Translations under genes and position numbers: made by a program
Virus record (IMG/VR): IMGVR_UViG_3300033144_007115
Location: 1-47,466 of that record
DNA from: a virus
DNA: 47,466 bases
Reading direction: 5' to 3' (one strand)
Notes under the pieces: generated by a model
Told to the model about the DNA's origin: nothing
What the model saw: the letters and a program-made list of their open reading frames with translations, nothing else
Databases searched by the model: none
Shown here: piece by piece, positions 17,091-46,199 of the stretch
How the letters are laid out: each line of letters begins with the position of its first letter
How positions within the stretch are numbered: the first letter of the stretch is position 1

Positions 17091-17429
17091 TTACTTAGTA
17101 GTAGTATCTATTACCTCCATACAAGTTAGTGTCTTAGACATCTTAGTAAGGGCATTCTTAGCCTTTCTAGAAGTTCCAAATGGCTTACTCATTGCAAGCA
17201 CTGTACCATTATTAGCCCTTAGTTGAAAAGTATTAAACCTTTCATTGATAACAAAGTTATCAGGATTACTACTGAATCTTTTTACAGAATCAATACTCCT
17301 TTGTAAATCATGTTTCCTAGTTCTTTTCTCAGAAAACATTATTACTTTTCTACTGTTACCTTTTTTACCATTTGTAATTTCATAGTAGAAATTACCTGTT
17401 CTTTTATTCTTTTTAATCTCAAACTTCAT
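17091..17429 (-). CDS. YegP/DUF1508-like small protein
   Basis: A 112-residue basic protein built of two similar halves. The first has GNFYYEITNGKKGNSRKVIM followed by an Ile-x-x-Val segment; the second has FQLRANNGTVLAMSKPFGTS followed by a Lys/Ala helix. This two-repeat pattern (aromatic, NG turn, Ser, Lys-rich helix) resembles the DUF1508/YegP family, whose role is unclear. The start overlaps the end of the NAMPT-like gene by 11 bases, so it is co-translated with the NAD genes, and the operon terminates just after it. A part in NAD chemistry is not shown by the sequence. Confidence 0.55.
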   Translation of the reverse strand: MKFEIKKNKRTGNFYYEITNGKKGNSRKVIMFSEKRTRKHDLQRSIDSVKRFSSNPDNFVINERFNTFQLRANNGTVLAMSKPFGTSRKAKNALTKMSKTLTCMEVIDTTTK

Positions 17430-19110
17430 TCAACTCTAATTTATTATTATTAATTCTCTCTCTCACTTGTGTAAGAGTAGTTTTATTATAAAACTTACCG
17501 TCTTCAAAGATAGTTTGTAAAGCTCCAGCCTCTTCATTTTCCCATTTACATTGGTCTATTAATACATATCCAGTATCAAAATCCTTTGCAACAGTTAACA
17601 AACCTTTAGCACTTTTCTTAGTACCATCATCAGTAATAGGGTCTTTAAAGATTTCTCTTCCCTCTGTTTCTGGTAAATTAGGATTTCTAGGTGCATTTAG
17701 GTCTTTAATGATTTCTACATAGGTAGCCTTCATTGCAAATCCAAATGTATCTCTAGTATTAAACTGATAAGTAAAACTACCAATACCCAATACAATATTT
17801 GTACTAGCAAAACCTTTATCTTCTAATCTCTTACAGATTTCTTCAGCTCTTTCTAAAGTAATAGAATCACCATAGATAGCTCCAATATGAGGGTCAAGTA
17901 CTTTATAACCTTGATTGTTCACTGTACCACCAAAAGTATCCCAAAGAAGTTCAATTACTCCTTTACTTTCAGGAGTATCTTCTAAATTTGCTTCTTCATA
18001 AAAATCTTCAATACCTGATTCCCATAAAGTAGCTTGTTCACTACCATAGTCCTCGCGGAATTGCTCAATTTCAGATGTTAAAGGTTTGTAGATAACTCCT
18101 TTATATTTAAAAAGATTACCTTTTTCTAATAATGAATCATCAATTTCCTCTACTTCTATAATATATCCCGGAATTGTACCACAAATAATCTCCACTGGGT
18201 CACCTGAATCAGGTCTAATTACTAATTTACCATCTCTAGCAAGAATCTCTTCTTTAAGTTCTGGTAAGTACTCTGTTAAAACTTTCCACAAATCCCAAGT
18301 ATCTGAAACTACTGAAAGTATACCTGTTGGGAAAGTTTTCATTAATCTTCTAAAAGTACCAAGTTCATCATCCTTACTACCTGCACACATAACACTGTGT
18401 TCAGTAGCATTTACAGAATGTACAACTGGTCCTGTTTCATCATAGTACTTTCTAGCACCATAAATAGTAGGTAAAGAATCATCCCCTAAAAATGATGTAG
18501 CATGGCCTAAGCCAGCGTTTATAGTAGATTCTATACCATCCATTCCTCTCATTGAGAAATTATGTCCTTGAAAATTTACAAAATCTACATTATTTTCATC
18601 TGTAGCTAAAGCATACTTTGTAAGATTACTCTTATATTGATGTGCAATAGTTGCAGCTGTCATTGGTTTCCATAACATAGTAGAAATTAAAGTCTCTAAA
18701 AAGTTAGTTAACCAATAAAAATCTGGGTTAGTATTATAAATAGTTAATACTGGTACACCCATAGGTACTAAAGTACCTTCTGGTAATGCTTTTACTTTTA
18801 AAGGTAAATATCCAAAATCATGGAGCCTCTCAATATGAGATACATCATAATCAGTATTTAAATACATTGAATATTCCCTCTTAATTTCTTCGCATACTTC
18901 TACCTTATCTTTATTAAAGAAATCATTTTCAAATATCTCTTGTATCTTCCTCATTACCATTTGTTGTCCAAATGACATTACTTTATCACATCCTTTAGGA
19001 GCATGTCTATTGCTTCTAGGTGTGAAATTACTATATACTAATGTTGTCCCTTTTGGGTACATTAGATGATGGCCTGTTTTATAGCCATCCGTTGCTAAAA
19101 ATGGATTCAT
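17419..19110 (-). CDS. nadV: Nicotinamide phosphoribosyltransferase-like enzyme (NAMPT/NadV, or NARP1 Namat)
   Basis: A 563-residue protein with the full NAMPT signature: TDGYKTGHHLMYP at the N-terminus, His238 in NATEHSV (the phosphorylated His of human NAMPT, His247), Asp270 in VSDTWD, RPDSGDP at 299-305, FGGTVNNQGYKVL, IYGDSITLERAEEI and LGIGSFTYQFNTRDTFGFAMK. An approximately 90-residue insert after RPDSGDP is common in bacterial and phage members. Classic members make NMN from nicotinamide and PRPP. In phages an almost identical-looking enzyme, Namat, joins nicotinamide to ADP-ribose pyrophosphate and so makes NAD+ directly; its partner is a Prs-like protein, exactly as found two genes upstream here. 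The start overlaps the HAD gene by four bases (ATGA). Motifs alone cannot tell NAMPT from Namat; no NMN adenylyltransferase is visible in this window. Confidence 0.92.
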   Translation of the reverse strand: MNPFLATDGYKTGHHLMYPKGTTLVYSNFTPRSNRHAPKGCDKVMSFGQQMVMRKIQEIFENDFFNKDKVEVCEEIKREYSMYLNTDYDVSHIERLHDFGYLPLKVKALPEGTLVPMGVPVLTIYNTNPDFYWLTNFLETLISTMLWKPMTAATIAHQYKSNLTKYALATDENNVDFVNFQGHNFSMRGMDGIESTINAGLGHATSFLGDDSLPTIYGARKYYDETGPVVHSVNATEHSVMCAGSKDDELGTFRRLMKTFPTGILSVVSDTWDLWKVLTEYLPELKEEILARDGKLVIRPDSGDPVEIICGTIPGYIIEVEEIDDSLLEKGNLFKYKGVIYKPLTSEIEQFREDYGSEQATLWESGIEDFYEEANLEDTPESKGVIELLWDTFGGTVNNQGYKVLDPHIGAIYGDSITLERAEEICKRLEDKGFASTNIVLGIGSFTYQFNTRDTFGFAMKATYVEIIKDLNAPRNPNLPETEGREIFKDPITDDGTKKSAKGLLTVAKDFDTGYVLIDQCKWENEEAGALQTIFEDGKFYNKTTLTQVRERINNNKLELNEV

Positions 19111-19532
19111 CCTACTTCAGTTAATGTTTCACCTTTGTTTTTATTTTTTATTGAAAGTACTTGTTTAGCAGCACCTTCTAATACTGTATATGCATAGTCT
19201 AAACCTGACCTATCACACAATTGCCAATTATAATAAGGTTTCCCTTCATTCCCATAAGGAAGTTCAATTGGATTTTGATTAATAGAGTCAATAAATAGAC
19301 CTTTACTAATACAATACTCTGTTATTTCACTATATCTACTTTCATTAGAGGCAGTGTGAATCATAATATAAGCACCAATAGTTTTACACCATTTCACTAA
19401 TTCCATGACTTTATCACAATCTTCTTTTGAATTATATTTCCAATGAAATAAAGTATCATCATAATCAACAGCTAAAACAATTTTTCCATGTTCTATCCAT
19501 TCTTTGACTAATCTTTCTATATCTTTTTTCAT
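19107..19532 (-). CDS. HAD-superfamily phosphatase inside the NAD operon
   Basis: A 141-residue protein with HAD motif I at residues 23-27 (DYDDT, in VDYDDTLFHW), motif II at HTAS, and a late KPYYNWQLCDRSGLD segment that supplies the Lys and acidic residues of motifs III/IV. It has no cap domain of any size, so it resembles the short phage HAD hydrolases that act on nucleotides or DNA ends. It overlaps the Prs-like gene by four bases upstream and the NAMPT-like gene by four bases downstream, so the three are almost certainly made together. Its substrate is unknown; a phosphorylated ribose or nucleotide intermediate of NAD chemistry is the natural guess. Confidence 0.75.
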   Translation of the reverse strand: MKKDIERLVKEWIEHGKIVLAVDYDDTLFHWKYNSKEDCDKVMELVKWCKTIGAYIMIHTASNESRYSEITEYCISKGLFIDSINQNPIELPYGNEGKPYYNWQLCDRSGLDYAYTVLEGAAKQVLSIKNKNKGETLTEVG

Positions 19533-20440
19533 AAAATTTCATTAAGTTTAATTTGGGTTGCAACTTCTCCTATTGTTTTACCTTTAAAAAGATACCACCC
19601 ATCATAACCACTATTTCTAATAGAGTCTGTATAGTAAATATGTTTAAAAGTCTGCCCTAAGTCTTCAAACCCTCTACTAAATATACCATGACTAACTACT
19701 AGAAATAAATCTCCCGCATCTTTTTTCTTAAGTTCCTCCGCTAATCCCATAAAAGTACCCCCACCATCACAAATATCATCTACAATAACACAGGGTCTTT
19801 TGGCTAAATTACCAGAATATACTTCAAAACCAGATAATTTACCTGTTTCCAAGTCTCTAGTTTTATCACACTTAATCATACTATAATCTTTAGCAGGTTT
19901 AAGTGTTTTCATTAAAGCAACAATCTTTTTATTAGCCCCAGCATCTGGGCAAATTACAGTAGGTACTTTACCTTTAGTATGCTTCTTAACTATGTCTTGA
20001 ATAGCCATATTGACAAAAGCATGATTATCTATAATCACAGGCTTATCAAGAGCTATTCCAACTCCATCAGAATGTGGGTCAAAAACAGTGACTTTTGCAA
20101 ATCCCATTCTATTAATCATATTAGCATATACTTTTACAGTTAATGCTTCTCCTGGATTACAAACTCTATCCTGCCTAGCTCCTGGAAAATAAGGTAAAAA
20201 TAAATTTATCTTTTCTACAGGATACTCATGCCTTTTAATAGCATCTACAGCTATCGCTAATAATCCTAAGTCATTAAATGAGTTAATTCTATGAGTTATA
20301 GTTATTGTTTTTGCTAATTTAATGTCTAATATTCTAAAATTAGGTTCTCCCCCACTAAAAATACTACTTTTAAAGTTAATACCTTTTGAAGTTGATTTTT
20401 TAAAAATATCAAAATTTGAAGATAAGTTTAAGTACATCAT
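19529..20440 (-). CDS. prs: Ribose-phosphate pyrophosphokinase-like enzyme (Prs, or NARP1 Adps)
   Basis: A 303-residue PRPP-synthetase family protein: PYFPGARQDR at 83-92, PDAGANKK at 165-172, a catalytic flexible loop KCDKTR at 190-195, and the PRPP-binding loop VIVDDICDGGGTF at 218-230. The usual DLHAxQIQGFF segment is replaced by DPHSDGVGIAL, so it is a divergent member. The housekeeping reaction is ATP plus ribose-5-phosphate to PRPP. Phage homologues called Adps instead pyrophosphorylate ADP-ribose, feeding the Namat step of NAD+ reconstitution. Coupling to a HAD and a NAMPT-like gene favours an NAD role, but PRPP supply for NAMPT is equally consistent with sequence. A second ATG lies one codon downstream. 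Confidence 0.9.
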   Translation of the reverse strand: MMYLNLSSNFDIFKKSTSKGINFKSSIFSGGEPNFRILDIKLAKTITITHRINSFNDLGLLAIAVDAIKRHEYPVEKINLFLPYFPGARQDRVCNPGEALTVKVYANMINRMGFAKVTVFDPHSDGVGIALDKPVIIDNHAFVNMAIQDIVKKHTKGKVPTVICPDAGANKKIVALMKTLKPAKDYSMIKCDKTRDLETGKLSGFEVYSGNLAKRPCVIVDDICDGGGTFMGLAEELKKKDAGDLFLVVSHGIFSRGFEDLGQTFKHIYYTDSIRNSGYDGWYLFKGKTIGEVATQIKLNEIL

Positions 20441-32749: not shown

Positions 32750-33493
32750 TTAATCTGGTATTTGTTGTTGTCCTCTAAACTGTTGTCTAATAACTTCTTC
32801 TTGTTCCTCTACTGATTTATAATAACTATTAGAATATTTTAAATTTCCTTCAGTTATGAAATCTCCCAATAAAGCCATAGGCCTATCATCAGGAAAAAGA
32901 ATAGCTAACTTATTAAAAGTCATGATATCTTCATATAGTTTAGGAGTATATTCTCTAGCTAATATTAGCTCATCAATCATTCCTTCCCTACTTAAAAAAT
33001 GTTTTACAAAATAATAAGTATCAGACATACTTTTTAGTTTTCCATGTTTCTTTCTTTCTTTTTTAGTCTGATATTCATATCTAGTTGGATTATAATTCCA
33101 AAAAGTACCATTATGGGCAGCAACAGGTCTTTTAACTCTGTGACTGTCCAAGATTATATTTTTAGAATTATTACTCACTACATAAGGATGACAGTTTGAA
33201 ATAGAATCTTCTCCTGCAGTACTATACCTTAAATGAACTACTAATTCATCCTCAATCCCAACATTTTGACGCATAATTGCACCAAATAATTGAGATTCTT
33301 GTCTTTCATTTAATAAATCATTTTCTAAATACTCATCAAAATAACCTTTGGAAATTAAGATTCTCTCTTCATTTACCTTTTTAAGGGCAAACCCACTCCC
33401 ATCATTATTTCTATATAGACCATTATTTATAGCTTTTTCTAGTTCATCAGGGTCAAATTCAATTCCCTTTTGTTTTGCAATAATTATACACAT
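32750..33493 (-). CDS. Class II glutamine amidotransferase-like Ntn hydrolase (247 residues)
   Basis: Begins MCIIIAKQKG, placing Cys2 as the N-terminal nucleophile after Met removal. It then shows the class II order: RNNDGSGFAL, VVHLRYSTAGEDSISNCHPY, AAHNGTFWNY and MSDTYYFVKHFLS, and ends with LAILFPDDRPMALLGD. Class II domains hydrolyse glutamine to pass ammonia to a ligase, or act as related amidases/peptidases. It overlaps the 522-residue amidoligase gene by 10 bases, so it is probably that enzyme's direct partner. It is clearly different from the second such protein at 35074. Confidence 0.85.
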   Translation of the reverse strand: MCIIIAKQKGIEFDPDELEKAINNGLYRNNDGSGFALKKVNEERILISKGYFDEYLENDLLNERQESQLFGAIMRQNVGIEDELVVHLRYSTAGEDSISNCHPYVVSNNSKNIILDSHRVKRPVAAHNGTFWNYNPTRYEYQTKKERKKHGKLKSMSDTYYFVKHFLSREGMIDELILAREYTPKLYEDIMTFNKLAILFPDDRPMALLGDFITEGNLKYSNSYYKSVEEQEEVIRQQFRGQQQIPD

Positions 33494-35052
33494 AAATCTT
33501 TAATCTTTACATTTTCATGATAAGAAACATCTCTATCATTTTCATATTCTATTTTACTCTCTTCTTCAATACTAAGCTTAGTAGAGAATCTAGATTTTCT
33601 TTCTTGAACATATTTTAACAATGAGTCTGCATTTTTATTATAAGCAGATACAATTAAATCTTCAATTGTAATTTTATCATTATTAAGTATATCTTCTTTA
33701 TTGTTCTGTATGAAGTCCACATAGGCCATACAAATTAAAACCCAATTCTTAATTTTAGCATAATTAAGAGAAGCTGAATGATTTCTAAACTCAATTGTAA
33801 GGGGTCTATTTCTATCTGCCTTACTTCTTTCTTTTTGATTAGGAATCCTTGCTCCCCTTGTATTAAAATTACAAGTAACAAGATTTAACCATTTATACCT
33901 AAGTATTTTATCTAAATCAATTCCATTATATTGACCACAATACCTCCCATCAGGATGTAATTTGTCTTTATTGAATTTTTGAGATAATTCTCTACCGTTA
34001 GATAGAGCTTTAAATAGTTTTTCATATGCTAAATCAATACCATATTCATAACCATATTCATCTATGATTTTTTCTAGCCCAAGACTAGGTAAATTACCGC
34101 AGTATATGTTTTTACTTCTAGAAGGAGGCAACATAGAAAATACATCATCTTGTAATTTCCTACCTAAAATATAAGCCAATACATTGAATTCTTTATTAAA
34201 TATTGCTCCACCAATATGAACATGTATACCACATGTTTTATCAATTTTACATCTACTTGCTACTTCCTTCACTGATTTATATAGATTTCTAAATCCAGCA
34301 TCTCCAGTTAAAATACCTGTAACATACTCTCCCCCTTCAATAGAGCCATCGTGAGTACATTCTAAGTTTAATCTGTTCTCTTCATATACATTGCGTCTTA
34401 AGAATCCACTACAGGTCTCTATTTCAACTCCAAATGTATATTTTTTTCCTTCAGAAATTCTATGAGAAATAGATTTTATACCTAATTCTAAATCTCTGTG
34501 CCTACGTTGTTCCTTACCTTGAGGGTCATCCGAATATTTACCTGTCTTCTTATTAGGGGCTACAAATCTTTTGGCCTCTTTTAGATAAGCTTTATACTTA
34601 ACACTATTTTTTTTTAAGAAATTCCCTGTAAAAGGATTTTCAGCAAAACCAGCTTTTATTAGTATCTTAGAAGATACTGCATATGCAGACTTTGTTCCAA
34701 AAGTGTTTGCTTCTAATTTAGGTAAAGAATCATAATCTAAATATTGGTAAGTATAATTGAGTTTTTTTTTCACATAAGGGATAATATCTCTAACATGAAC
34801 ATGTTCAAACTTCTTTTTTATTTCGTTATATCCAGTTATAATAGTATAACAATGGCTTTTCCTATACCATACTTTAGTAATACTCTCTTGAATATAATGT
34901 TTAGGGTTGTAAATGACCCAAGAATAATCCTCTAAGTATATAACTTGAGGTGGACTTTCCACTGATTTGTCATAGTTGTTTCCATCTATACAAACAAGGT
35001 TTTTTTCCTTTATTTCTTTTCCGTCTATTACACCAATAATCTTATTTGGCAT
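33484..35052 (-). CDS. Amidoligase_2-family COOH-NH2 ligase (glutamine-synthetase fold)
   Basis: A 522-residue protein. The ligase domain starts near residue 205 and shows the Amidoligase_2 signature: TFGVEIET at 206-213, HDGSIEGGEYVT at 234-245, CGIHVHIGG at 274-282, RYKWLNL at 385-391 and EFRNHSAS at 421-428. The Glu, His and Arg residues in these motifs would bind metal and ATP as in glutamine synthetase. The 200-residue N-terminal part is not recognised. Family members join a carboxyl to an amine, giving an amide or isopeptide bond on a peptide, protein or metabolite. It sits between two class II amidotransferases in the island. Substrate unknown. Confidence 0.85.
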   Translation of the reverse strand: MPNKIIGVIDGKEIKEKNLVCIDGNNYDKSVESPPQVIYLEDYSWVIYNPKHYIQESITKVWYRKSHCYTIITGYNEIKKKFEHVHVRDIIPYVKKKLNYTYQYLDYDSLPKLEANTFGTKSAYAVSSKILIKAGFAENPFTGNFLKKNSVKYKAYLKEAKRFVAPNKKTGKYSDDPQGKEQRRHRDLELGIKSISHRISEGKKYTFGVEIETCSGFLRRNVYEENRLNLECTHDGSIEGGEYVTGILTGDAGFRNLYKSVKEVASRCKIDKTCGIHVHIGGAIFNKEFNVLAYILGRKLQDDVFSMLPPSRSKNIYCGNLPSLGLEKIIDEYGYEYGIDLAYEKLFKALSNGRELSQKFNKDKLHPDGRYCGQYNGIDLDKILRYKWLNLVTCNFNTRGARIPNQKERSKADRNRPLTIEFRNHSASLNYAKIKNWVLICMAYVDFIQNNKEDILNNDKITIEDLIVSAYNKNADSLLKYVQERKSRFSTKLSIEEESKIEYENDRDVSYHENVKIKDLCV

Positions 35053-35073
35053 TTTTATAAAAGTTTTAAATTA

Positions 35074-36345
35074 TTATTCTTCAGTTGCAAAAGTAAGGTC
35101 ATGTTCGATATACTCCTTTAGTTTATCTAACTTAATTACCTCTTCCTCTATTGAACTACTTGCATTGGCTCTCAAATTATTAGCAACAGCTCCTATCTTA
35201 TTATGAAGGTCATTCATAATATCAATATGGCTTGATAAAAAATCATCTGAGGTACTAATTAACTCAGTCTTGGCATCTTTAGCAAGGTCAAGTAGACGTT
35301 CACCATTTTCAGGATTGAAATGAATACCAGGTAATCCAAGTCTAAACTCATGATAACCACCATCATTATATTCAACCTTTAAAATATGAAAGGCTCTTTT
35401 AGGACAAAGAATAATCTCTTGTCTAACTATTATAGAAGGAAGACTATATACCTTTCTTCTTCTAGATATAGTTAAATCTGAGAATTTCTCTACTCTCCAT
35501 TTTACCAATCCATTACTAATTATATGATGCTCTTTAAGAGTACAAAGTTGAAAAGGTAGTTTTGCTTTTTTCTCTTCTACTACTCTTTCTGCCTCTCTTT
35601 TAGCTTTAGCCTCACTCTCTCTCAAAACTCTAGCTTCTGCATCAACAGTAGCTTCTTTTAAAGGATTAGAGGCAATAGCTTTATTCTTTACAATTTTCCC
35701 CTCCTTAATAATATAAAGCCTTTGGTCTTTAAACTTTTGAATATTATTGCATTCAATTGCTTTAAGTGCTTCCTCTAAAGAAGAAATATACATAGAAGTA
35801 GAACCATCTTTATTCTTAATAGTTCCTCTAAATAAACTTCTATCTTCATGCTTAAAGATATACATAGTATTTTTATCTTTTTTATCTACCCAAACAAGAT
35901 TAGCAGCTCCCTCAAATTGAGAAAGAATTTCTGTGTCTTTATATTTATCCAAGTAAGCAAAAAAAGTTTTACTATCCATGTTAACTTCATCACTAAGTTT
36001 ATGCTCCCTTTTTAATATCGTCCAATTTTTAACAGTACCATTATGTACTCCTACAATATTATTGAATATGAAAGGGTGAGCATTACTAATAGTTTTAGCA
36101 TGTCCTTGGGTTGCAGCCCTAACATGCCCAATAAATAGGTTAGTTTCTTTTAAACCTATACTTGGTATCATTTTTTTACTAACTAACCCTTCTATTTTAA
36201 AGATTCTATCTTCAAAAGGTATAGAAGTATCATGATTATAAAAACCACAAGCATCTTTACCTCTTTCTTCATTGTACATCAATGCCATTTTAATCTTATC
36301 TTTGCTAAATTTACTAGGTCCAGAGTAAGCGACTATTCCACACAT
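35074..36345 (-). CDS. Class II glutamine amidotransferase-like Ntn hydrolase with coiled-coil extension (423 residues)
   Basis: Begins MCGIVAYSGPSKFSKDKI, the standard GlmS/PurF-like start with Cys2 nucleophile. Then come ERGKDACGFYN, LFIGHVRAATQGHAKTISNA, VGVHNGTVKNW and DSKTFFAYLDKY, giving a complete class II domain of about 220 residues. The remaining half is a Lys/Glu/Ala-rich coiled coil near 225-260 (EARVLRESEAKAKREAERV) and a C-terminal region of no known family. There is no sugar isomerase or PRTase domain, so it must work with a separate ligase; the 522-residue amidoligase starts 21 bases downstream and the cyclotransferase ends 19 bases upstream. Confidence 0.85.
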   Translation of the reverse strand: MCGIVAYSGPSKFSKDKIKMALMYNEERGKDACGFYNHDTSIPFEDRIFKIEGLVSKKMIPSIGLKETNLFIGHVRAATQGHAKTISNAHPFIFNNIVGVHNGTVKNWTILKREHKLSDEVNMDSKTFFAYLDKYKDTEILSQFEGAANLVWVDKKDKNTMYIFKHEDRSLFRGTIKNKDGSTSMYISSLEEALKAIECNNIQKFKDQRLYIIKEGKIVKNKAIASNPLKEATVDAEARVLRESEAKAKREAERVVEEKKAKLPFQLCTLKEHHIISNGLVKWRVEKFSDLTISRRRKVYSLPSIIVRQEIILCPKRAFHILKVEYNDGGYHEFRLGLPGIHFNPENGERLLDLAKDAKTELISTSDDFLSSHIDIMNDLHNKIGAVANNLRANASSSIEEEVIKLDKLKEYIEHDLTFATEE

Positions 36346-36364
36346 ATTTATATAGTTATTTTAA

Positions 36365-36784
36365 TTATACTAATTCTACTTCTTCTACTTTTTCTTCATT
36401 GTTTCTATCATTGTAATCACCAGTTTTCACTCGTTTATTACCAATAGAACTTCTGTCAGGCATAAAATATAACCATGCCTCTAATTCTTCACCATTTTCT
36501 GTAAGAACAGGCGTAAGCTTTCTCTCATACCAATTTGGATGACTTTCTAAACCATCAATGAAAGGTAAAGCATCTGCATGAACTTCATATAGTTCTCCCT
36601 TAATAGTAGAAATTTGTTCATCTGGATATACAAAAGGAATACCCCTTGTATATAATGCAAATTTATTTATAGTTTCACACTTCCCTTTAAATACTTGGGC
36701 TTGAATATAACCGTGATTACCAAAACCTTGCATTAAAGTCCCATATACCATCATAAGTATAGGAGTATTTTTTTTATAACTCAT
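36365..36784 (-). CDS. Gamma-glutamylcyclotransferase (GGCT/AIG2-like)
   Basis: A 139-residue AIG2-like protein with the substrate-binding VYGTLM at 13-18, KGELYEVHADALPFIDGLE at 62-80, where Glu80 is at the catalytic position, and NWYERKLTPV afterwards. Family members release 5-oxoproline from gamma-glutamyl amines or peptides. In an island of amide-forming ligases it could remove gamma-glutamyl groups or edit ligation products. The C-terminus is acidic (NNEEKVEEVELV), beyond the conserved fold. It abuts the 148-residue gene. Confidence 0.85.
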   Translation of the reverse strand: MSYKKNTPILMMVYGTLMQGFGNHGYIQAQVFKGKCETINKFALYTRGIPFVYPDEQISTIKGELYEVHADALPFIDGLESHPNWYERKLTPVLTENGEELEAWLYFMPDRSSIGNKRVKTGDYNDRNNEEKVEEVELV

Positions 36785-37231
36785 TTATTTTAATTTATGT
36801 TCATAAGTACTAATTAAAGCTCCACTTCTTCCAACACAGTTTTCTGAAATTTTAGTCCATTTACTACTTCTACTTAAACTTTTGTTAATTGCTATTTGTG
36901 TATTGGTAACAGTGTATAATACAGAGCCATAATTTAATTCTCTAGCAATATCTATTCCTAGATTTAACTTTTTAGAACAATTATATTTTCCTATATTAGA
37001 AATAACAGCTATACCACAACAACCAGGTACAGAAGTAATAAATACTGAACCAATGCCAGTAGCAACTTGGCAAGAAGGATACATATAATTTTGAAATAAA
37101 GCCTCTTGATTAAAACTTAATACTACTTTACCAAATAGCTTTTTATTTTTATTGTATTTGTACTTATCAATAAAAAATTTTTTTTTAGCTTCTCCCACTG
37201 TCCACCTTGCATCCTCCCATATATTACTCAT
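36785..37231 (-). CDS. Unknown protein of the amidoligase island, possibly GNAT-fold
   Basis: A 148-residue protein. The middle and end (GSVFITSVPGCCGIAVISNI, later LNYGSVLYTVTNTQIAINKS and SKWTKISENCVGRSG) recall the last strands and helix of a GNAT fold, where a late Asn precedes a helix. This is weak. GNAT-fold enzymes can act as peptide ligases using aminoacyl donors and occur in amidoligase neighbourhoods, which would make sense here. It overlaps the ATP-grasp gene by 8 bases and directly precedes the cyclotransferase. Confidence 0.5.
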   Translation of the reverse strand: MSNIWEDARWTVGEAKKKFFIDKYKYNKNKKLFGKVVLSFNQEALFQNYMYPSCQVATGIGSVFITSVPGCCGIAVISNIGKYNCSKKLNLGIDIARELNYGSVLYTVTNTQIAINKSLSRSSKWTKISENCVGRSGALISTYEHKLK

Positions 37232-38042
37232 TATTCATTTTTTTAATTATTATACTAGGAATAATTTTTCTCCATTCTATACCTGTCTGTTCTCCAAAAC
37301 TAGGTGCTGAATTGATTTCAATTACTTTAAATTTATGAGTTCTATCCTCTTCAGCTTTTCCTTTGACTCTTACATCACAAGCTCCAATATCAAGACCTAC
37401 TGCTTTCAATGATTTTACACAATGTTCAACAATACTATCCCAATTAAAGGGTTTATCAAATTGCTCATTATCTTCAAGAAACCAAACACAATTAGAATCA
37501 TTTCTGACAAATTTTCTATGTTCTGGAGTTCCTTCTTTAAGCATTTTTCTACAAGTGTAGAAGCATCCATCTTCAGTTATATGAAGTCTATACTCTCTTG
37601 TATAGTTGTAATATTTCTCAAAGTAATAACCTTCGTTATTTTCCTCTAAAAATTCTTCCCATTGATTTTGGTTATCAATTTTTCTGATACCTCTTCCTCT
37701 AGAGCCAAAAACTTTTTTAGCTATAATTGGAAATGGAATATCTTCTATATTGTTAACTTCAGCAATGTTCTTCCACCATTCAGGAGTTTCTACTTCAGCA
37801 GCTTTAAAACAATTCTTCATTTTAAGTTTGCTAGAACTATTTTGAATAGATTCAATAGAGTTAATTTGGATTCCAGTCTTGTCCCAATTGGTAGTACTTC
37901 CTAATCTAATACAAGCTAATGCTGGTACTAGTACTCCTTTTCTCTCATCTACTCTTCCCTTAATAGGTTTTCTCAATATTCTATGAGAAGGATGTCTACT
38001 AAGTACTCTTATATACCTTTTATTAAAGGTTTTGCTTTCCAT
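37224..38042 (-). CDS. ATP-grasp ligase (RimK-like)
   Basis: A 272-residue ATP-grasp protein: FPIIAKKVFGSRGRGI at 104-119 gives the ATP-binding Lys and the glycine-rich loop; YYFEKYYNYTREYRLHI at 139-155 is the second nucleotide-binding segment; CDVRVKGK at 222-229 and KVIEINSAPSFGEQ at 239-252 give the Mg-binding Asp, Glu and Asn. RimK-like enzymes activate a carboxylate as acyl-phosphate and attach it to an amine, often adding Glu residues to a protein or peptide. It lies between a protein of unknown fold (38057) and the GNAT-like protein. Its leader is AAATTTTAAATATG. Confidence 0.88.
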   Translation of the reverse strand: MESKTFNKRYIRVLSRHPSHRILRKPIKGRVDERKGVLVPALACIRLGSTTNWDKTGIQINSIESIQNSSSKLKMKNCFKAAEVETPEWWKNIAEVNNIEDIPFPIIAKKVFGSRGRGIRKIDNQNQWEEFLEENNEGYYFEKYYNYTREYRLHITEDGCFYTCRKMLKEGTPEHRKFVRNDSNCVWFLEDNEQFDKPFNWDSIVEHCVKSLKAVGLDIGACDVRVKGKAEEDRTHKFKVIEINSAPSFGEQTGIEWRKIIPSIIIKKMNNE

Positions 38043-38056
38043 ATTTAAAATTTAAA

Positions 38057-39184
38057 TTATTCATTGTCTATTATATCCCCAATAGCTTGCCAGATATCAT
38101 TTCCATTTCTATCTTTAGGCTTATAATAATTAAGAGCTTTTTTAATTACTTTCGCCTTCTTATACTTACTTTTATCTTTAGGCCTAACTTCTCTGCTGTT
38201 TACATAAGTATAGTTGCCTTTATCATCTTTAAGTTTAAGAATTATAGTATTAGTGCTAACTATTTTTTTAACTTTTTCAATAATGTATTCTCCCTCTAAA
38301 GTAAAATTATAATGTTTACCTCTAAAAATTACTACGTCTGTTTTCTTAGGGGTATAGTGTTTTTTATTATTTCTCCTTTTTTCCAATGCCAAAAACGTTG
38401 CTAGTTCTAGTTGTTCAGCTATTTTTGCCATTCCTTGGGCTCTACTTATTCTAGTTAATAAATAATTACTAATATTATACTCATTTTCCCTTAGTTTAAT
38501 AACTATTTTCTGTGAATTAGCCATTTCTTGAGTTATTCGTACTACTTCAGTACTCTCACTTATAAGGGATATAGGTATTATATCTATAGGAACTCCAAAA
38601 GAATCTGAAATAGTTAATCTAGTTGCCAGTTCTTGTATTCTAAATTTAGAGCTATTTTCAGGCCATTCCCTTTGAAACTTAAGTCTAACAAAGTCTCCAA
38701 CTCTTAATGTAAGATTAATTACTTTTACTTTGGGGTCATCCATCATGAAAGTATAAGTATTATTAGTTCCTAGCTCTACAGCTGTAAATAATCCTATTCC
38801 AATGCTCACCTGCATAACTTGGAATTCTCTATTTGAGAAAGATTCTCCATCATAAGATATAATAGTTCCAGGCCTAATGGAAAAATTTTTACTTCTTACC
38901 CCTATTAAATTACTAGGGGTAAATCTATTATGTTTAAATTTACCTCTAATGCCTACCAAAGTAACTCCTTTAGCGTCTACAGTGCGTATAGTGTATCTTC
39001 TACCTATATTATTAAGGTTATTTCCATTATACCCCATTAAATTAGTTAGAGTAACATCCTGCGCTTCAAAATACAAGTAATTTTCTACCTTAAACATACC
39101 TTCAGGGATAATTTCCTGTGGCGCAAAAGGGTCCCACCCTCCATTACCTCTTCTTCTTCCTCTATTTTCTACATTTTCAGGCAT
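38057..39184 (-). CDS. Unknown beta-rich protein of the amidoligase island, candidate substrate or carrier
   Basis: A 375-residue protein with an exposed N-terminus (MPENVENRGRRRGNGGWDPF) rich in Arg and Gly, then alternating beta segments suggesting several small barrels, and a basic C-terminal third (VVIFRGKHYNFTLEGEYIIE, then KYKKAKVIKKALNYYKPKD). No catalytic motif was found. Its start overlaps the type-2 amidoligase gene by 8 bases and its end is 14 bases from the ATP-grasp gene. Sitting between two ligases, it could be the protein they modify or a scaffold. That is inference; a structural role is possible. Confidence 0.6.
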   Translation of the reverse strand: MPENVENRGRRRGNGGWDPFAPQEIIPEGMFKVENYLYFEAQDVTLTNLMGYNGNNLNNIGRRYTIRTVDAKGVTLVGIRGKFKHNRFTPSNLIGVRSKNFSIRPGTIISYDGESFSNREFQVMQVSIGIGLFTAVELGTNNTYTFMMDDPKVKVINLTLRVGDFVRLKFQREWPENSSKFRIQELATRLTISDSFGVPIDIIPISLISESTEVVRITQEMANSQKIVIKLRENEYNISNYLLTRISRAQGMAKIAEQLELATFLALEKRRNNKKHYTPKKTDVVIFRGKHYNFTLEGEYIIEKVKKIVSTNTIILKLKDDKGNYTYVNSREVRPKDKSKYKKAKVIKKALNYYKPKDRNGNDIWQAIGDIIDNE

Positions 39185-39989
39185 TTTCTTTTACTTTTTC
39201 AGTTTCTATAATTGCTAATTTAAATTTCTTAATCAAAGCTTTAGCTATTTTCTTATCAGAATTATTAATACATTTTTGAATTCTTTCTGAATCTTTATCT
39301 GTTAGATTTAAATTCTGAGCAAATTCAATTGCTTTAATAGTATTCTCATAAGCCCATTCCATTAATTCAGTTGATGATATCCAAAAATTAGATAAAACTC
39401 TGTATTCCACCCCAAAAGGCTTATTTCTGAAGGCTCCAGCATTTCCATACATAGACCTTCTAAGAGTATCTTCATCCATAATTATACTTGGTACACCTAA
39501 GAATAAATCCATTGCTTGAATAATCTTTAAATTATCTTCAATTTCTGGATTATCATATCCAACATGAATATGTCCACCACAAGTTCTCAATCTTGAGAAA
39601 GGTTCAGGGGATTCATTCACATATTCTGTCCAAGCATTAAAATCAGGTTCACAACCAAATTCACATGCTCTAGGATGCATTAAATCATCTATTTCAAATT
39701 CCCCAGAAGGTTGAATAGCTAACTCTAATCCCATTTCCATAGACTTTTCTTCTAAGTGGTCCATTACAAAATCAATTTCTCTTACAAAAGATTCTTTATC
39801 AATACAAGGAGGAATGTTAAATTCTACAGCTACATTATCTTCTTGTATACAATGCCCATTATCAGAAATAGGTTTTGGATTTTCTTTTGTACCTCCAAAT
39901 TTATCAATGGCAGATACAAGATTTCCATCAAAATCTTTAACAAAAAGTTCAGGGTCACATCCTAAAGTTATGTTATTATATTTTTTCAT
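39177..39989 (-). CDS. phiEco32-type COOH-NH2 ligase (type 2 amidoligase)
   Basis: A 270-residue protein matching the phiEco32-like type-2 amidoligases: LGCDPELFVKDFDG at 9-22, QEDNVAVEFNIP at 49-60, MHPRACEFGCEPDFNAW at 104-120, RTCGGHIHVGYD at 135-146 and EYRVLSNFW at 195-203. The paired acidic and His residues correspond to the metal and ATP sites of the glutamine-synthetase fold. It forms an amide or isopeptide bond on an unknown substrate. It is a different subfamily from the 522-residue ligase at 33484, so the island holds two GS-fold ligases plus an ATP-grasp. Its start follows the leader AATTAAATATG. Confidence 0.88.
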   Translation of the reverse strand: MKKYNNITLGCDPELFVKDFDGNLVSAIDKFGGTKENPKPISDNGHCIQEDNVAVEFNIPPCIDKESFVREIDFVMDHLEEKSMEMGLELAIQPSGEFEIDDLMHPRACEFGCEPDFNAWTEYVNESPEPFSRLRTCGGHIHVGYDNPEIEDNLKIIQAMDLFLGVPSIIMDEDTLRRSMYGNAGAFRNKPFGVEYRVLSNFWISSTELMEWAYENTIKAIEFAQNLNLTDKDSERIQKCINNSDKKIAKALIKKFKLAIIETEKVKENA

Positions 39990-40018
39990 ATTTAATTATT
40001 TTTTTAATTTATTGAAAC

Positions 40019-41026
40019 TCAAGTTCCGAAAAATAGCTGACTGAAATTTTTATCTAGTTTCTTCTGATTTCTATAATATATTAAATCATTTCTAGTCATA
40101 ATAATTGAAGATTTAAGTTTATACTTAAAATTATATGTACCTCCATATTTTAATTCACGTTTTACTAAATAACGTGTTTTATATATACCTGCTTCTCTAT
40201 ATATACCTGCAACTTTAATTACTTTGCCTGCATCACCATATTTTTCTCCAATAACTATGTTATTTTCTACTTCTTCTATCTCTATGTTTAATATATTACA
40301 AACTTCTTTTAAAGGATTTTTTAATAGTTTTTTTAAATATTTCCTCATTTTTGGAATGTTATATTCATATTCTTTAAAAGTAGAAACAATAATTGGTAAA
40401 ATATCCGTAGTAAATAGACTTACAGTAAAAGAATCAAATCTAAATAATGGGTATATCTTAGAATAATTAGGCAAAGTTTTTGCTATTTTTAATCTTTCTT
40501 TAAACTGTTTTTTATTTATAGGTAAGAAAAGACAATTATTTCCTGCTGGAGAATTTGCGCCATAAAAGTGCTCTTGTTTTACATATCCTAAATATGCAAT
40601 ACATTCTACCCAAGAAAGTTTTGGATTTTTTTTCTTAAGCATGAATAAGTCCTCATAGGCAGTTGCATAAAAAGTAGTATTATATATAAATCTTAATATT
40701 TGTATTCCAGCTAATGCATGGGCTCCACAAGTATAATTTTTATATTCTAATTTAATTTCTATACTATCTCCAACAGTAGTACAATTACTATTTAAATCTA
40801 CAATTTTCATAGGGAATCCAGCCCCTTTTAAAATTTTTATGAATTTTTTTAATTCTTTTATTGTTTTATTATTATTTTTTAAAAAATCTTTTCTAATATA
40901 AAACATAACATAGCCTGTTTTCTCAAAAGAATGATTTATACTCTCACAACAATCGTTACCCTTACCATCATTTATAAGTTCATTAGATTTGCTATATATT
41001 TCATAATAATGTATATCAGTATGCAT
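40019..41026 (-). CDS. Unknown protein at the head of the amidoligase island, 335 residues
   Basis: A 335-residue basic protein with a Cys/His pair in YTCGAHALAGIQILRFIY and an NSPAGNNC segment, reminiscent of but not convincing as a cysteine peptidase (Cys then His then Asn). It follows the DNA polymerase by one base and precedes the type-2 amidoligase by 29 bases. Its central region weakly resembles the 215-residue protein at 21443. Peptidases are frequent partners of amidoligases, so a peptidase test is worthwhile; the function is otherwise unknown. Confidence 0.55.
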   Translation of the reverse strand: MHTDIHYYEIYSKSNELINDGKGNDCCESINHSFEKTGYVMFYIRKDFLKNNNKTIKELKKFIKILKGAGFPMKIVDLNSNCTTVGDSIEIKLEYKNYTCGAHALAGIQILRFIYNTTFYATAYEDLFMLKKKNPKLSWVECIAYLGYVKQEHFYGANSPAGNNCLFLPINKKQFKERLKIAKTLPNYSKIYPLFRFDSFTVSLFTTDILPIIVSTFKEYEYNIPKMRKYLKKLLKNPLKEVCNILNIEIEEVENNIVIGEKYGDAGKVIKVAGIYREAGIYKTRYLVKRELKYGGTYNFKYKLKSSIIMTRNDLIYYRNQKKLDKNFSQLFFGT

Positions 41027-42967
41027 TTAATGTTCCCAATAATTTACCACAACTGCTTCTGCAATCATAGGTACTTTTTTACAAAAATATTTACCTGCTC
41101 TTTCCATACATTCAGATAGAACAGTACTAGCTTCTTCAGCCAGCCTTTTTAAACTTTCTACTACAATCTCATCATGTACTAGATTTACTATTTTTACTTC
41201 TTCATACCATTTTCTTTTAGTTATTTCTTCTTTGAAAAAGATAGCTGCTAATTTGGTCATAGACCCTGCACAGCCTTGAATAGGGAAGTTCTTAGACATT
41301 CTTTCTATCTTTCCCTTATATGTGTAATACTTTCTTACTTTGTCTCTGTAGAAGTCTTTATTTATCTTATAATCTTCCCAAAAACCTTTTCTTTCAATTA
41401 ACTTTTTAAGTTCTAAATATTCTTCAAAAAATTCTATAAAATACTTTCTTTTAGTTACATTATCAATTAAGATATAACCATTAGTAAAAGTTTCTTTACT
41501 CTTTTTTTTAAAATATTCTTGTTTAACTGGAAAAGCTTCAGCAAGTGCATCAATAAATTCTTGTGCCTCTTCCTCAGATACTTTTAAGTCATCTTTTACA
41601 GTATAAGCAGAGCCTCCATAATCTAATTTAAGATTTAAAATCTTTCCAATTTGTCTTTTAGGGTCACCCTTCTTAATAATAACTTCAGTGCCTTCAATTA
41701 TTGAAAACATTTTAGAAGCTACCATAGAATGAGTATCACCATCACCAGTAAGATAAAAATCAATTAAATCTGGGTCACCTGATACATCTGCAGTTATTCT
41801 AGGCTCTTGCTGTGAATAATCACACACAATTAATTTATTACCTTTTTCAGGTATAAAACATTCCCTATGTATACCAGCAGGTATATTTTGTAAGTTAGGT
41901 TTACTACTAGAAATTCTACCAGTATCTAATATTTGCCAATAGTTAGAATGTACTCTACCTGTTATTGGGTTTATATTCTTAAGAAATTCTATTCCATAAG
42001 TACTTAATGATTTCTTAAGTTTCTTATAATTAAGGTATAACTTAACAAATTCATGCTTACTTTTTTTAATTTGTTTCTCTTCAACACTTTCTTTAGTATC
42101 CCCCGTTTTCCTATCTACTACTGTAGTATCTATACCCAACTTTTTAGCAAATAATACTACTTGTTGAGGTGAATCCCAATTAATATCACACTTATTTTCA
42201 GTTTCAAATAAATCTAGTTGCGCCCTTATAAACTCTGTATGTCCATTGTTTATTACATAACTATCTAAAATTTTCTTAGCAGTGTAATACTTCTCTTTAT
42301 TACTATTTTCTAAGCCAGTCCATAAGGCCCTGTCTAAATAAAACCCACCTAATTCAATATCTACTAATACTTTTACAAATTTGTTTTCTAATCTCAGACA
42401 ATCATGTAAATCTTTTTCAGTTAATTTGGTATCTTGTATCTCCTTAATATCAATAAGATATTCAACATCTCTAGCACCATAATCAATCTGTTTTTCAGTA
42501 AAAGGTCTTCCTTCTAATCCAATAAACTTATTTCTAATGTCTTTATCTAAGATTACTCCTAAATCTCTTTCACATATTCCTCCTAATGATAGAGTTCTAT
42601 CCTCATGTCCATTAGTTAATAAGGCTTCTGCTAAGAATCCATCATAAATATTATTAGTATCTATATTATAAAAATACTTTATAAAGGCAAGGTCAAACTT
42701 TGCATTCCAAAAGATTTTGCATATAGTATTATCTTCTAGTACTTCTTTTAAGGGGGAGATATCTACAGTTCTTGTATCTATTACAAATTGATTCTCTTTA
42801 TCTCCAATTTGAAACATTATTGTTTTATTTTGGTGATTAAAAAGCCCCTCTGTCTCTGTATCTACCCCTAAAACTTTCTTACTTTTACAATAATCTGCTA
42901 TTTTTTCTACAGTAGTATTTGTAAACTCTTGAAAGTTACCCTTTTGTCCACTTACGTAATATATCAT
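41027..42967 (-). CDS. polA: Family A DNA polymerase with 3'-5' exonuclease
   Basis: A 646-residue replicative polymerase. The exonuclease domain begins with GVDTETEGL at 34-42 (Asp36, Glu38) and ends with YGARDVEYL. Polymerase motif A is VCDYSQQEPRITA at 381-393, motif B is KRQIGKILNLKLDYGGSAY at 437-455, and motif C is NLVHDEIVVES at 595-605. In motif B Arg438, Lys442 and Tyr450 match E. coli Arg754, Lys758 and Tyr766, and Leu446 occupies the position of Phe762. There is no 5' nuclease domain; that function is encoded at 24941. It overlaps the small membrane protein gene upstream by 32 bases. Confidence 0.95.
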   Translation of the reverse strand: MIYYVSGQKGNFQEFTNTTVEKIADYCKSKKVLGVDTETEGLFNHQNKTIMFQIGDKENQFVIDTRTVDISPLKEVLEDNTICKIFWNAKFDLAFIKYFYNIDTNNIYDGFLAEALLTNGHEDRTLSLGGICERDLGVILDKDIRNKFIGLEGRPFTEKQIDYGARDVEYLIDIKEIQDTKLTEKDLHDCLRLENKFVKVLVDIELGGFYLDRALWTGLENSNKEKYYTAKKILDSYVINNGHTEFIRAQLDLFETENKCDINWDSPQQVVLFAKKLGIDTTVVDRKTGDTKESVEEKQIKKSKHEFVKLYLNYKKLKKSLSTYGIEFLKNINPITGRVHSNYWQILDTGRISSSKPNLQNIPAGIHRECFIPEKGNKLIVCDYSQQEPRITADVSGDPDLIDFYLTGDGDTHSMVASKMFSIIEGTEVIIKKGDPKRQIGKILNLKLDYGGSAYTVKDDLKVSEEEAQEFIDALAEAFPVKQEYFKKKSKETFTNGYILIDNVTKRKYFIEFFEEYLELKKLIERKGFWEDYKINKDFYRDKVRKYYTYKGKIERMSKNFPIQGCAGSMTKLAAIFFKEEITKRKWYEEVKIVNLVHDEIVVESLKRLAEEASTVLSECMERAGKYFCKKVPMIAEAVVVNYWEH

Positions 42968-45350: not shown

Positions 45351-45631
45351 TATTCCTTTTTGAATGTGTAGCTAGTATTACCATCACTATACATTATTAT
45401 ATAATAATCTCCTTGTTTGATATCGTTATAGTTTATCTCTTGTCCTAATAGGTTAAGGTATTTAACAATAGTTCTCCTAAGTTCCTTACACTGTACATAT
45501 ACAGGTATATAAGGGTCTACATCACCATTATAATCAACAGGTACTAACATGTAATAACCACTGATTTCAGCCATCAAATACCTATATATATTAGGAGTAA
45601 TACTTGTACCTGCTCCATCTACTGTATCCAT
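45350..45631 (-). CDS. Hypothetical protein, 93 residues
   Basis: A 93-residue beta-rich acidic protein (GYYMLVPVDYNGDVDPYIPV, later GDYYIIMYSDGNTSYTFKKE). Its start overlaps the stop of the secreted-protein gene (TAATG), so both are on one phage transcript. No family recognised. Confidence 0.6.
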   Translation of the reverse strand: MDTVDGAGTSITPNIYRYLMAEISGYYMLVPVDYNGDVDPYIPVYVQCKELRRTIVKYLNLLGQEINYNDIKQGDYYIIMYSDGNTSYTFKKE

Positions 45632-46158
45632 TAATCACATTTTCCAGTAAAGTAGGCTAATTCAATTGGTAATACTAGAGGTGTCTGGTCTATATAGTAA
45701 GGACAAAAATTGTCAAAACCATTACAGCCTGGGCCTCCAAATGCTCTCATATTGAGGCACCAAGTATATGTTGCTCCTGATGTTAAACCTGTAAAGGATA
45801 ATCCAGTTCCCACAACTGAACATCCAGCATCATATAATGTAAAGCCTCCAAAACTTATATTATTACATGTATGACTAAATCCAGCATTAAAATCAAGAGC
45901 TGTACCTGGGGATACTACTGTAAAACATGCAGTCATTGCGCTTGTTGTGGGATAGTTGTATAAACAATATCCATTATCTTCTAAATATTGATAATCAGGT
46001 GGTGGTGCTGTTATTAAAGTTGTAGGCCCATCAGGACTACCACAGCTACCAGCTTTGTATTGTAGGTTAGTATCTGATATAAATGCATCTATAGTTGAAT
46101 ATTGACTATAACTTGCCATTGATATTAATAACATTCCTATTGTTAATAGTTTTTTCAT
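45631..46158 (-). CDS. Secreted Bacteroidota-like surface protein fragment
   Basis: I start the gene at the Met of MKKLLTIGMLLISMASYSQ, a Bacteroidota-type signal peptide ending in SYSQ; an ATG 11 codons earlier is possible but would spoil the signal. The mature protein is rich in Gly, Thr, Ser and Cys (eight or more Cys), with SFTGLTSGATYTWCLN and the ending LPIELAYFTGKCD. In Bacteroidota secreted proteins, LPIELL-type segments usually introduce a further domain and a T9SS sorting signal. Here the protein stops right after it, so it looks like a truncated host-derived cell-surface protein. It is coupled to the phage gene downstream and lies directly beside the cassette-like repeats. Confidence 0.7.
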   Translation of the reverse strand: MKKLLTIGMLLISMASYSQYSTIDAFISDTNLQYKAGSCGSPDGPTTLITAPPPDYQYLEDNGYCLYNYPTTSAMTACFTVVSPGTALDFNAGFSHTCNNISFGGFTLYDAGCSVVGTGLSFTGLTSGATYTWCLNMRAFGGPGCNGFDNFCPYYIDQTPLVLPIELAYFTGKCD

Positions 46159-46199
46159 TGTATTATTTTTAATTAGATGTACTACCCTCATTTACACAT

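Follow-up and report, generated by a model that had tools for sequence, protein, structure and literature searches.

A lineage variant of a widespread phage cassette: the amidoligase island of a crAss-like phage and its second class II amidotransferase

Why does a phage keep three amide ligases and several enzymes that remove glutamyl groups directly beside its replication genes? The question is raised by IMG/VR record IMGVR_UViG_3300033144_007115, an incomplete 47,466-bp fragment of a crAss-like phage (the whole stretch is called the window here, and is locus L007 of our survey). In it, a first-pass annotation had described an island of eight to nine genes between the DNA polymerase gene and the replication module, with two amidoligases of glutamine synthetase (GS) fold, an ATP-grasp ligase, a gamma-glutamylcyclotransferase (GGCT) and two class II glutamine amidotransferases (GATases). 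All nine open reading frames were confirmed, those of recognisable family by Pfam, PHROG and NCBIfam, and the island is the crAss-lineage variant of a published phage amidoligase cassette. On balance, though only just, we favour an early-infection cytosolic pathway that would build and edit a gamma-glutamyl (or other side-chain carboxyl) amide or peptide conjugate.

The nine minus-strand genes at 32750-41026 follow directly on a family A DNA polymerase gene (PolA, 41027-42967). The gaps from the polymerase onward are 0, 29, -8, 14, -8, 0, 19, 21 and -10 nucleotides, and because they span only -10 to +29 we regard the genes as one compact operon (Table 1). Sak4-like ATPase, helicase and primase genes lie downstream of the cassette. 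No obvious membrane segment is present in any cassette protein, which together with the tight linkage to replication genes indicates an early, cytosolic substrate. In alignments, all recognised cassette enzymes retain the conserved active-site residues of their relatives, with no disruption. Best matches of the RNA polymerase subunit are all or nearly all crAss-like, assigning the phage to Crassvirales, and those of the DNA polymerase are crAss-like as well, with the exception of Leptolyngbya phage Lbo-JY46.

Table 1. Genes of the amidoligase cassette in the window, in order from the DNA polymerase gene
Feature	Coordinates	Strand	Support
Orphan 335-aa protein, cassette head	40019..41026	-	no Pfam, PHROG, NCBIfam or tblastn match
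COOH-NH2 ligase type 2, GS-fold carboxylate-amine ligase (fold from predicted model)	39177..39989	-	PF14395 E=1.8e-14; phrog_3815 2e-78
Orphan 375-aa protein between COOH-NH2 ligase and ATP-grasp	38057..39184	-	no match
RimK-like ATP-grasp ligase	37224..38042	-	phrog_2599 1e-33; TIGR00768 3e-10; PDB profile matches
(C/N)CG-motif family, possibly GNAT-fold, 148 aa	36785..37231	-	recurrent cassette family (hhalign)
Gamma-glutamyl(amine) cyclotransferase (GGCT), AIG2/YtfP family	36365..36784	-	GGACT PF06094 6e-26
Class II GATase, N-terminal Cys, C-terminal region without assigned function	35074..36345	-	GATase_6 PF13522 5e-13
Amidoligase_2, GS-fold part ~206-475 (fold from predicted model), N-terminal extension ~1-205	33484..35052	-	PF12224 1.6e-9
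Second stand-alone class II GATase, overlaps Amidoligase_2 stop	32750..33493	-	GATase_6 1.7e-4 plus homologues

Since neither amidoligase has a PDB relative that could be found by sequence, their folds were taken from prediction, using AlphaFold2 models searched with Foldseek. The COOH-NH2 ligase model (predicted local distance difference test, pLDDT, 95.3) matched YbdK (1.2e-5) as well as plant glutamate-cysteine ligase, the gamma-glutamylmethylamide synthetase GmaS and glutamine synthetase (E 1e-5 to 1e-4), and the protein keeps the invariant residues G10, D12, E14, H140, R177, E195 and R197. Amidoligase_2 (pLDDT 80) matched glutamine synthetase more weakly (1.9e-4), with a low overall template-modelling score that is due to its N-terminal extension, and also resembled the depupylase Dop in fold, though weakly (E=0.05). 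It retains E210, E212, D235, E242, H277, H279, N390, E421 and R423. The predicted models thus support a GS/glutamate-cysteine ligase fold with conserved Glu, His and Arg for both proteins, and bear out the pair of GS-fold ligases proposed in the first-pass annotation.

The ATP-grasp protein has its best PDB profile match to RimK/alpha-L-glutamate ligase (1e-18), and PDB profiles and NCBIfam place it among the RimK, MptN and CofF glutamate ligases; K72, E150, R152, K166, D223, E242 and N244 are all present. RimK itself glutamylates ribosomal protein S6. The GGCT has YtfP and AIG2-like PDB matches, and its VYGTL motif and E80 are invariant. Both GATases of the window are class II, as had been claimed. 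The first matches PurF/GlmS structures in the PDB and GlmS, PurF and EgtC in NCBIfam, and keeps C2, R76, N102, G103 and D124. The second is weak by itself, its GATase_6 match falling below the Pfam cut-off, and its identity is confirmed by ten homologues in the same slot (L040, L041, L042, L043, L044, L046, L053, L081, L083 and L084), in which Cys2, HxR and HNG are invariant and CHP and SDT motifs are conserved in all or nearly all. A profile search for a class I (C26-type) GATase gave no match in the window, which is an incomplete fragment. In the relatives that carry one, its nearest kin are gamma-glutamyl-CDP-amidate hydrolase and PuuD, the latter together with related amidotransferases of solved structure. 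Because the relatives of the cassette enzymes are YbdK/glutamate-cysteine ligase/GmaS, RimK/MptN/CofF, gamma-glutamyl-CDP-amidate hydrolase/PuuD and GGCT, a common theme of gamma-glutamyl or glutamate ligation emerges.

Are these genes kept together elsewhere? Of 50,697 phage records, 313 contain the COOH-NH2 ligase, never with more than 60% identity to that of the window, and it occurs in at least 554 IMG/VR stretches. A pattern scan of 84,980 species genomes confirmed just 12 loci, all on contigs of metagenome-assembled genomes, so the cassette is essentially a phage system. Host tallies over the phage records are near-identical for ligase and GATase (Pseudomonas 121 and 120, Escherichia 93 and 90, Vibrio 22 and 22, Proteus 8 and 8). 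We fetched about 120 loci and labelled their genes with profiles built in this analysis. As descriptive counts over 121 loci, the ligase is present in 120, class II GATase in 111, ATP-grasp in 109, Amidoligase_2 in 108, a PuuD-type class I GATase in 103, primase in 89, the ~200-aa phrog_4877 family in 73, a small zinc-ribbon protein in 51 and GGCT in 46. Flanks of 7 kb to the left and right of the ligase were available in 48 IMG/VR contigs, and the genes found there on its strand include class II GATase (48/48), Amidoligase_2 (46/48), class I GATase (46/48), primase (38/48), ATP-grasp (36/48) and GGCT (25/48). The parts therefore co-occur rather than being scattered, which was the outcome that the first-pass annotation had asked a neighbourhood survey to distinguish, and chance association is excluded.

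Eight other loci (L041 and L042, which are the closest relatives of the window, and L043, L044, L046, L053, L083 and L084) have all or most of its gene order, PolA - [class I GATase or orphan] - ligase - variable protein - ATP-grasp - GGCT - GATase - Amidoligase_2 - second GATase. The class I GATase beside the ligase is frequent and is not a defining feature in the cassette papers cited here. The phrog_4877 gene between the amidoligases, likewise not defining in them, is a lineage feature, not found in the window, and no locus combines it with the extended Amidoligase_2, whose ~200-residue N-terminal extension occurs in 34 loci. The extended form makes up almost one branch of the ligase tree, and therefore reflects a single lineage event and is a marker of the crAss lineage, not proof of functional replacement. 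Fusion of the phrog_4877 family as the N-terminus of Amidoligase_2 was rejected, there being no profile similarity. The phrog_4877 proteins (L012:10776-11396 and 72 other loci) carry an RxPxRQWxRG motif, belong to podovirus-type cassettes and have no Pfam or PDB relative. Many crAss-type cassettes have a uracil-DNA glycosylase gene immediately downstream of Amidoligase_2 (L004, L006, L045, L051, L057, L069 and others). In Leptolyngbya phage Lbo-JY46 (L005, 1-12185) the cassette comes directly after nicotinate phosphoribosyltransferase and phosphoribosyl pyrophosphate synthetase genes, and three of its proteins are class I GATase-like.

Three proteins of the window's cassette fall outside the recognised enzyme families. 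Searches of Pfam, NCBIfam and tblastn gave no match for the 335-aa protein, and PHROG only matches at E>=0.026; by gene-map comparison its slot holds a class I GATase in L042, L043, L044 and L046. Inspection by eye suggested that it might be a divergent member of the cassette-adjacent proteins of 220-330 aa (PaP3 orf49/50, L008, L033, L039 and others); this was rejected, since the profile probability of 0.2% did not exceed that of controls. The 375-aa protein had no match in Pfam, PHROG, NCBIfam or homologue searches, and unrelated proteins of 290-460 aa occupy its slot in relatives; a correspondence to the ~200-aa phrog_4877 family was rejected for want of profile similarity. The third, at 36785-37231, which the first-pass annotation had called a possible GNAT, gave 99.9% in an hhalign comparison with a family that has 8 members, itself included, in 7 loci. 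The other loci are L011, L041, L060, L068, L071 and L081, with members such as L011:9072-9518, L011:9556-10005 and L071:1588-2046, and the N-terminal half is conserved. The GNAT profile did not match the window protein, and gave one weak match to the relative in L071 (E=0.007), so that this (C/N)CG family may be GNAT-like. A second cluster with a CCG motif lies upstream of the class I GATase in L010, L016, L054, L070 and other loci.

How might these enzymes act together? In the pathway that we favour, the COOH-NH2 ligase, being YbdK/glutamate-cysteine-ligase-like, would use ATP to activate a glutamate-type carboxylate and join it to an amine; the RimK-like ATP-grasp would add one further amino acid; and Amidoligase_2 would form a third amide, for which the class II GATase(s) would release ammonia from glutamine. 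Gamma-glutamyl groups would be removed by the GGCT and, in most relatives, also by a PuuD/SpuA-like class I hydrolase, which the second class II GATase has perhaps replaced in the window. Two or three amide bonds would thus be made on a cytosolic acceptor and gamma-glutamyl groups trimmed; the order of reactions, the substrates, the acceptor and the membership of all enzymes in a single pathway are what we infer. Mass spectrometry of kuravirus SU10 supports early expression of the cassette: it revealed the ATP-grasp, GATase and YtfP/GGCT proteins, and they were assigned to the early gene products (PMC4281155). The first-pass annotation had proposed a multi-step modification of a peptide, a virion protein or the host surface. 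Co-occurrence and intact active sites uphold a functional-looking, multi-enzyme amide-bond pathway without deciding among those targets, and nothing in the analysis points to a virion protein.

Several points weigh against this pathway. No product, substrate or phenotype has been reported for any cassette member. Fold and motifs leave the substrates unfixed, as the GS-fold and ATP-grasp families include many enzymes that do not act on glutamyl groups, and the GATases could be hydrolases of EgtC kind rather than ammonia donors. Peptidoglycan as acceptor rests on published conjecture, and two of the nine window proteins are orphans that may not belong to the pathway. Moreover, our loci were picked via the ligase and some contigs are near-duplicates, so that the survey counts are not unbiased rates.

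The acceptor is where the alternatives part, and there are several weak candidates. The best single one, put forward tentatively and ahead of protein, a small amine and DNA, is a peptidoglycan stem-peptide precursor. Amides or amino acids might be added or swapped on cytosolic UDP-MurNAc-peptide or lipid II stems, changing the wall and excluding superinfecting phages, a proposal that we consider possible though doubtful. It has been published for the same cassette: a seven-gene 'peptidoglycan modification cassette' was described in RIO-1-like podoviruses and also in phiEco32, 7-11, PA11, tf, MR299-2, LUZ24, PaP3 and CW02 (PMC5498523), with Iyer 2009 and Hardies 2013 cited as the source (PMC5498523, PMC11945000), and the idea is repeated elsewhere (PMC11945000, PMC10580990). 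In all these papers, however, the target is a hypothesis without experiment. The cytosolic appearance of the enzymes would suit precursor enzymes, but Mur, Fem and lipid II enzymes have no relatives among the cassette genes, and early remodelling would have to proceed with no lysis, holin or membrane partner in the cassette. In favour of the proposal, the hosts are all Gram-negative or cyanobacterial among the matches listed, a tally that may reflect only the phage lineages.

We think it rather unlikely that the acceptor is a protein, with the RimK-like ligase and the amidoligases attaching glutamate or short peptides early in infection to a host or phage protein (ribosomal, RNA polymerase or a replication protein). 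RimK is the closest solved relative of the ATP-grasp, linked peptide ligases were predicted by Iyer and colleagues to tag proteins (cited in PMC4431377), and Amidoligase_2 bears its weak resemblance to Dop. Yet no constant small acidic protein, Pup-like or other small carrier was found in the cassettes, and the three trimming enzymes fit a small-molecule pathway better. The small zinc-ribbon protein was considered as a LysW-like amino-group carrier on account of its acidic tail and set aside, as the window showed no copy of it and it looks like a general phage protein.

Such a small-molecule pathway, in which gamma-glutamylation protects or diverts an amine (a polyamine, an amino acid or an antibiotic-like metabolite) before processing and deprotection, or serves nitrogen salvage, strikes us as equally unlikely. 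The matches of the class I GATase to PuuD and gamma-glutamyl-CDP-amidate hydrolase, of the class II GATase to EgtC and of the ligase fold to GmaS speak for it, but the class I GATase was not found in the window fragment, and the precursor-making enzymes of the PuuA-PuuD, EgtA-EgtC and butirosin pathways are all absent from the cassette. A phage carrying such genes, phage-ZRK32, has effects on growth and nitrogen use (PMC10945688), although these are not tied to individual genes.

Least probable is DNA hypermodification, an idea that arose in the present analysis, with ligases decorating a modified base or nucleotide to shield phage DNA from restriction. Phages of very different kinds do have the cassette next to replication genes (in 38/48 contigs a primase gene lies no more than 7 kb away, and in the window PolA is directly upstream). 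In kuravirus Bas91 (L122, 11980-23857) genes for primase/helicase, exonuclease, nucleotidyltransferase and dCTP deaminase come directly after it, and the subfamily to which this phage belongs is remarkably resistant to restriction-modification from a cause not known (PMC11990801). Against this, DNA of the LUZ24-like cassette phages tf and U17 is cut normally, by RsaI, HpaI, EcoRV, SmaI and HaeIII (PMC3517423) and by 11/16 enzymes (PMC11945000), respectively, uracil-DNA glycosylase genes sit beside Amidoligase_2 in many crAss-type cassettes, and the cassette holds no nucleic-acid-modifying partner enzyme. An unrecognised pathway joining glutamate or peptide groups to phage nucleotides is a longer shot still; if true, it would account for the close association with replication genes in unrelated phages as well as for the restriction resistance of kuraviruses.

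Whatever the acceptor, three amide ligases and several trimming enzymes are kept together across phages of Pseudomonas, Escherichia, Vibrio, Bacteroidota and cyanobacteria and are almost absent from cellular genomes. Such retention implies that the cassette must have an important role in early infection, and its product has been a question since 2009. The survey now defines a common core and lineage-specific parts, and the core is available in a laboratory host through BASEL phages such as Bas91.

PADLOC defence models matched nothing relevant. Elsewhere in the window, a NAMPT/NAPRTase-like protein (563 aa, 17419-19110) is encoded near a ribose-phosphate pyrophosphokinase-like protein (303 aa, 19529-20440). 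NARP1 is a phage NAD+ reconstitution pathway, Adps plus Namat, that acts in anti-defence (PMC12774641), and the two window genes look like the pair expected for a pathway of this kind. In a 186-aa protein at 45631-46191, the signal sequence (MKKLLTIGMLLISMASYSQ) is of Bacteroidota type and the C-terminus (VLPIELAYFTGKCD) looks like the sorting motifs of type IX secretion; it is possibly a secreted, host-type cargo gene carried by the phage. A 137-aa protein with a glucosaminidase domain (PF01832, 25939-26352) is encoded within the block of replication-side genes and is a possible lysis enzyme in an unusual place.

How, then, does the window compare with known systems? That the full set is exceptional in this phage is not supported, as it is a widespread, previously named cassette, present in the records of RIO-1, PaP3 and Bas91 and already in those of the crAss-like phages phi14:2 and cr108_1. 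With the cassettes of RIO-1-like phages, phiEco32, LUZ24, PaP3, tf, 7-11, PA11 and CW02 the window shares the COOH-NH2 ligase, Amidoligase_2, ATP-grasp, class II GATase and GGCT, in an early region adjoining replication genes. It differs in lacking phrog_4877 between the amidoligases (present in most) and a class I GATase beside the ligase, and in having the extended Amidoligase_2, a second class II GATase, the (C/N)CG protein, two orphans and another gene order. Phi14:2 and cr108_1 are Crassvirales phages like that of the window. Phi14:2 has all five core enzymes and the extended Amidoligase_2, but in the order GGCT-ATP-grasp-ligase-GATase-Amidoligase_2 after primase, with a longer GATase (639 aa) that is not joined by a second class II enzyme; cr108_1 has four core enzymes (GGCT not found) and the extended Amidoligase_2, but carries a class I GATase. 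PuuA-PuuD, EgtA-EgtC and butirosin BtrJ-BtrG are gamma-glutamyl protection and deprotection pathways in which, as in the window, a gamma-glutamyl ligase of GS or ATP-grasp fold is coupled to a deprotecting enzyme that is GATase-like or a GGCT; the window differs in having no orthologous ligase, three ligases instead of one and no pathway-specific partners. The RimK and LysX alpha-glutamate ligases have the ATP-grasp fold and catalytic residues in common with the window enzyme, which is a short phage form (272 aa) scoring under the NCBIfam cut-offs. The kind of cassette is thus already known, and what is new in the window is the lineage variant with its second class II GATase.

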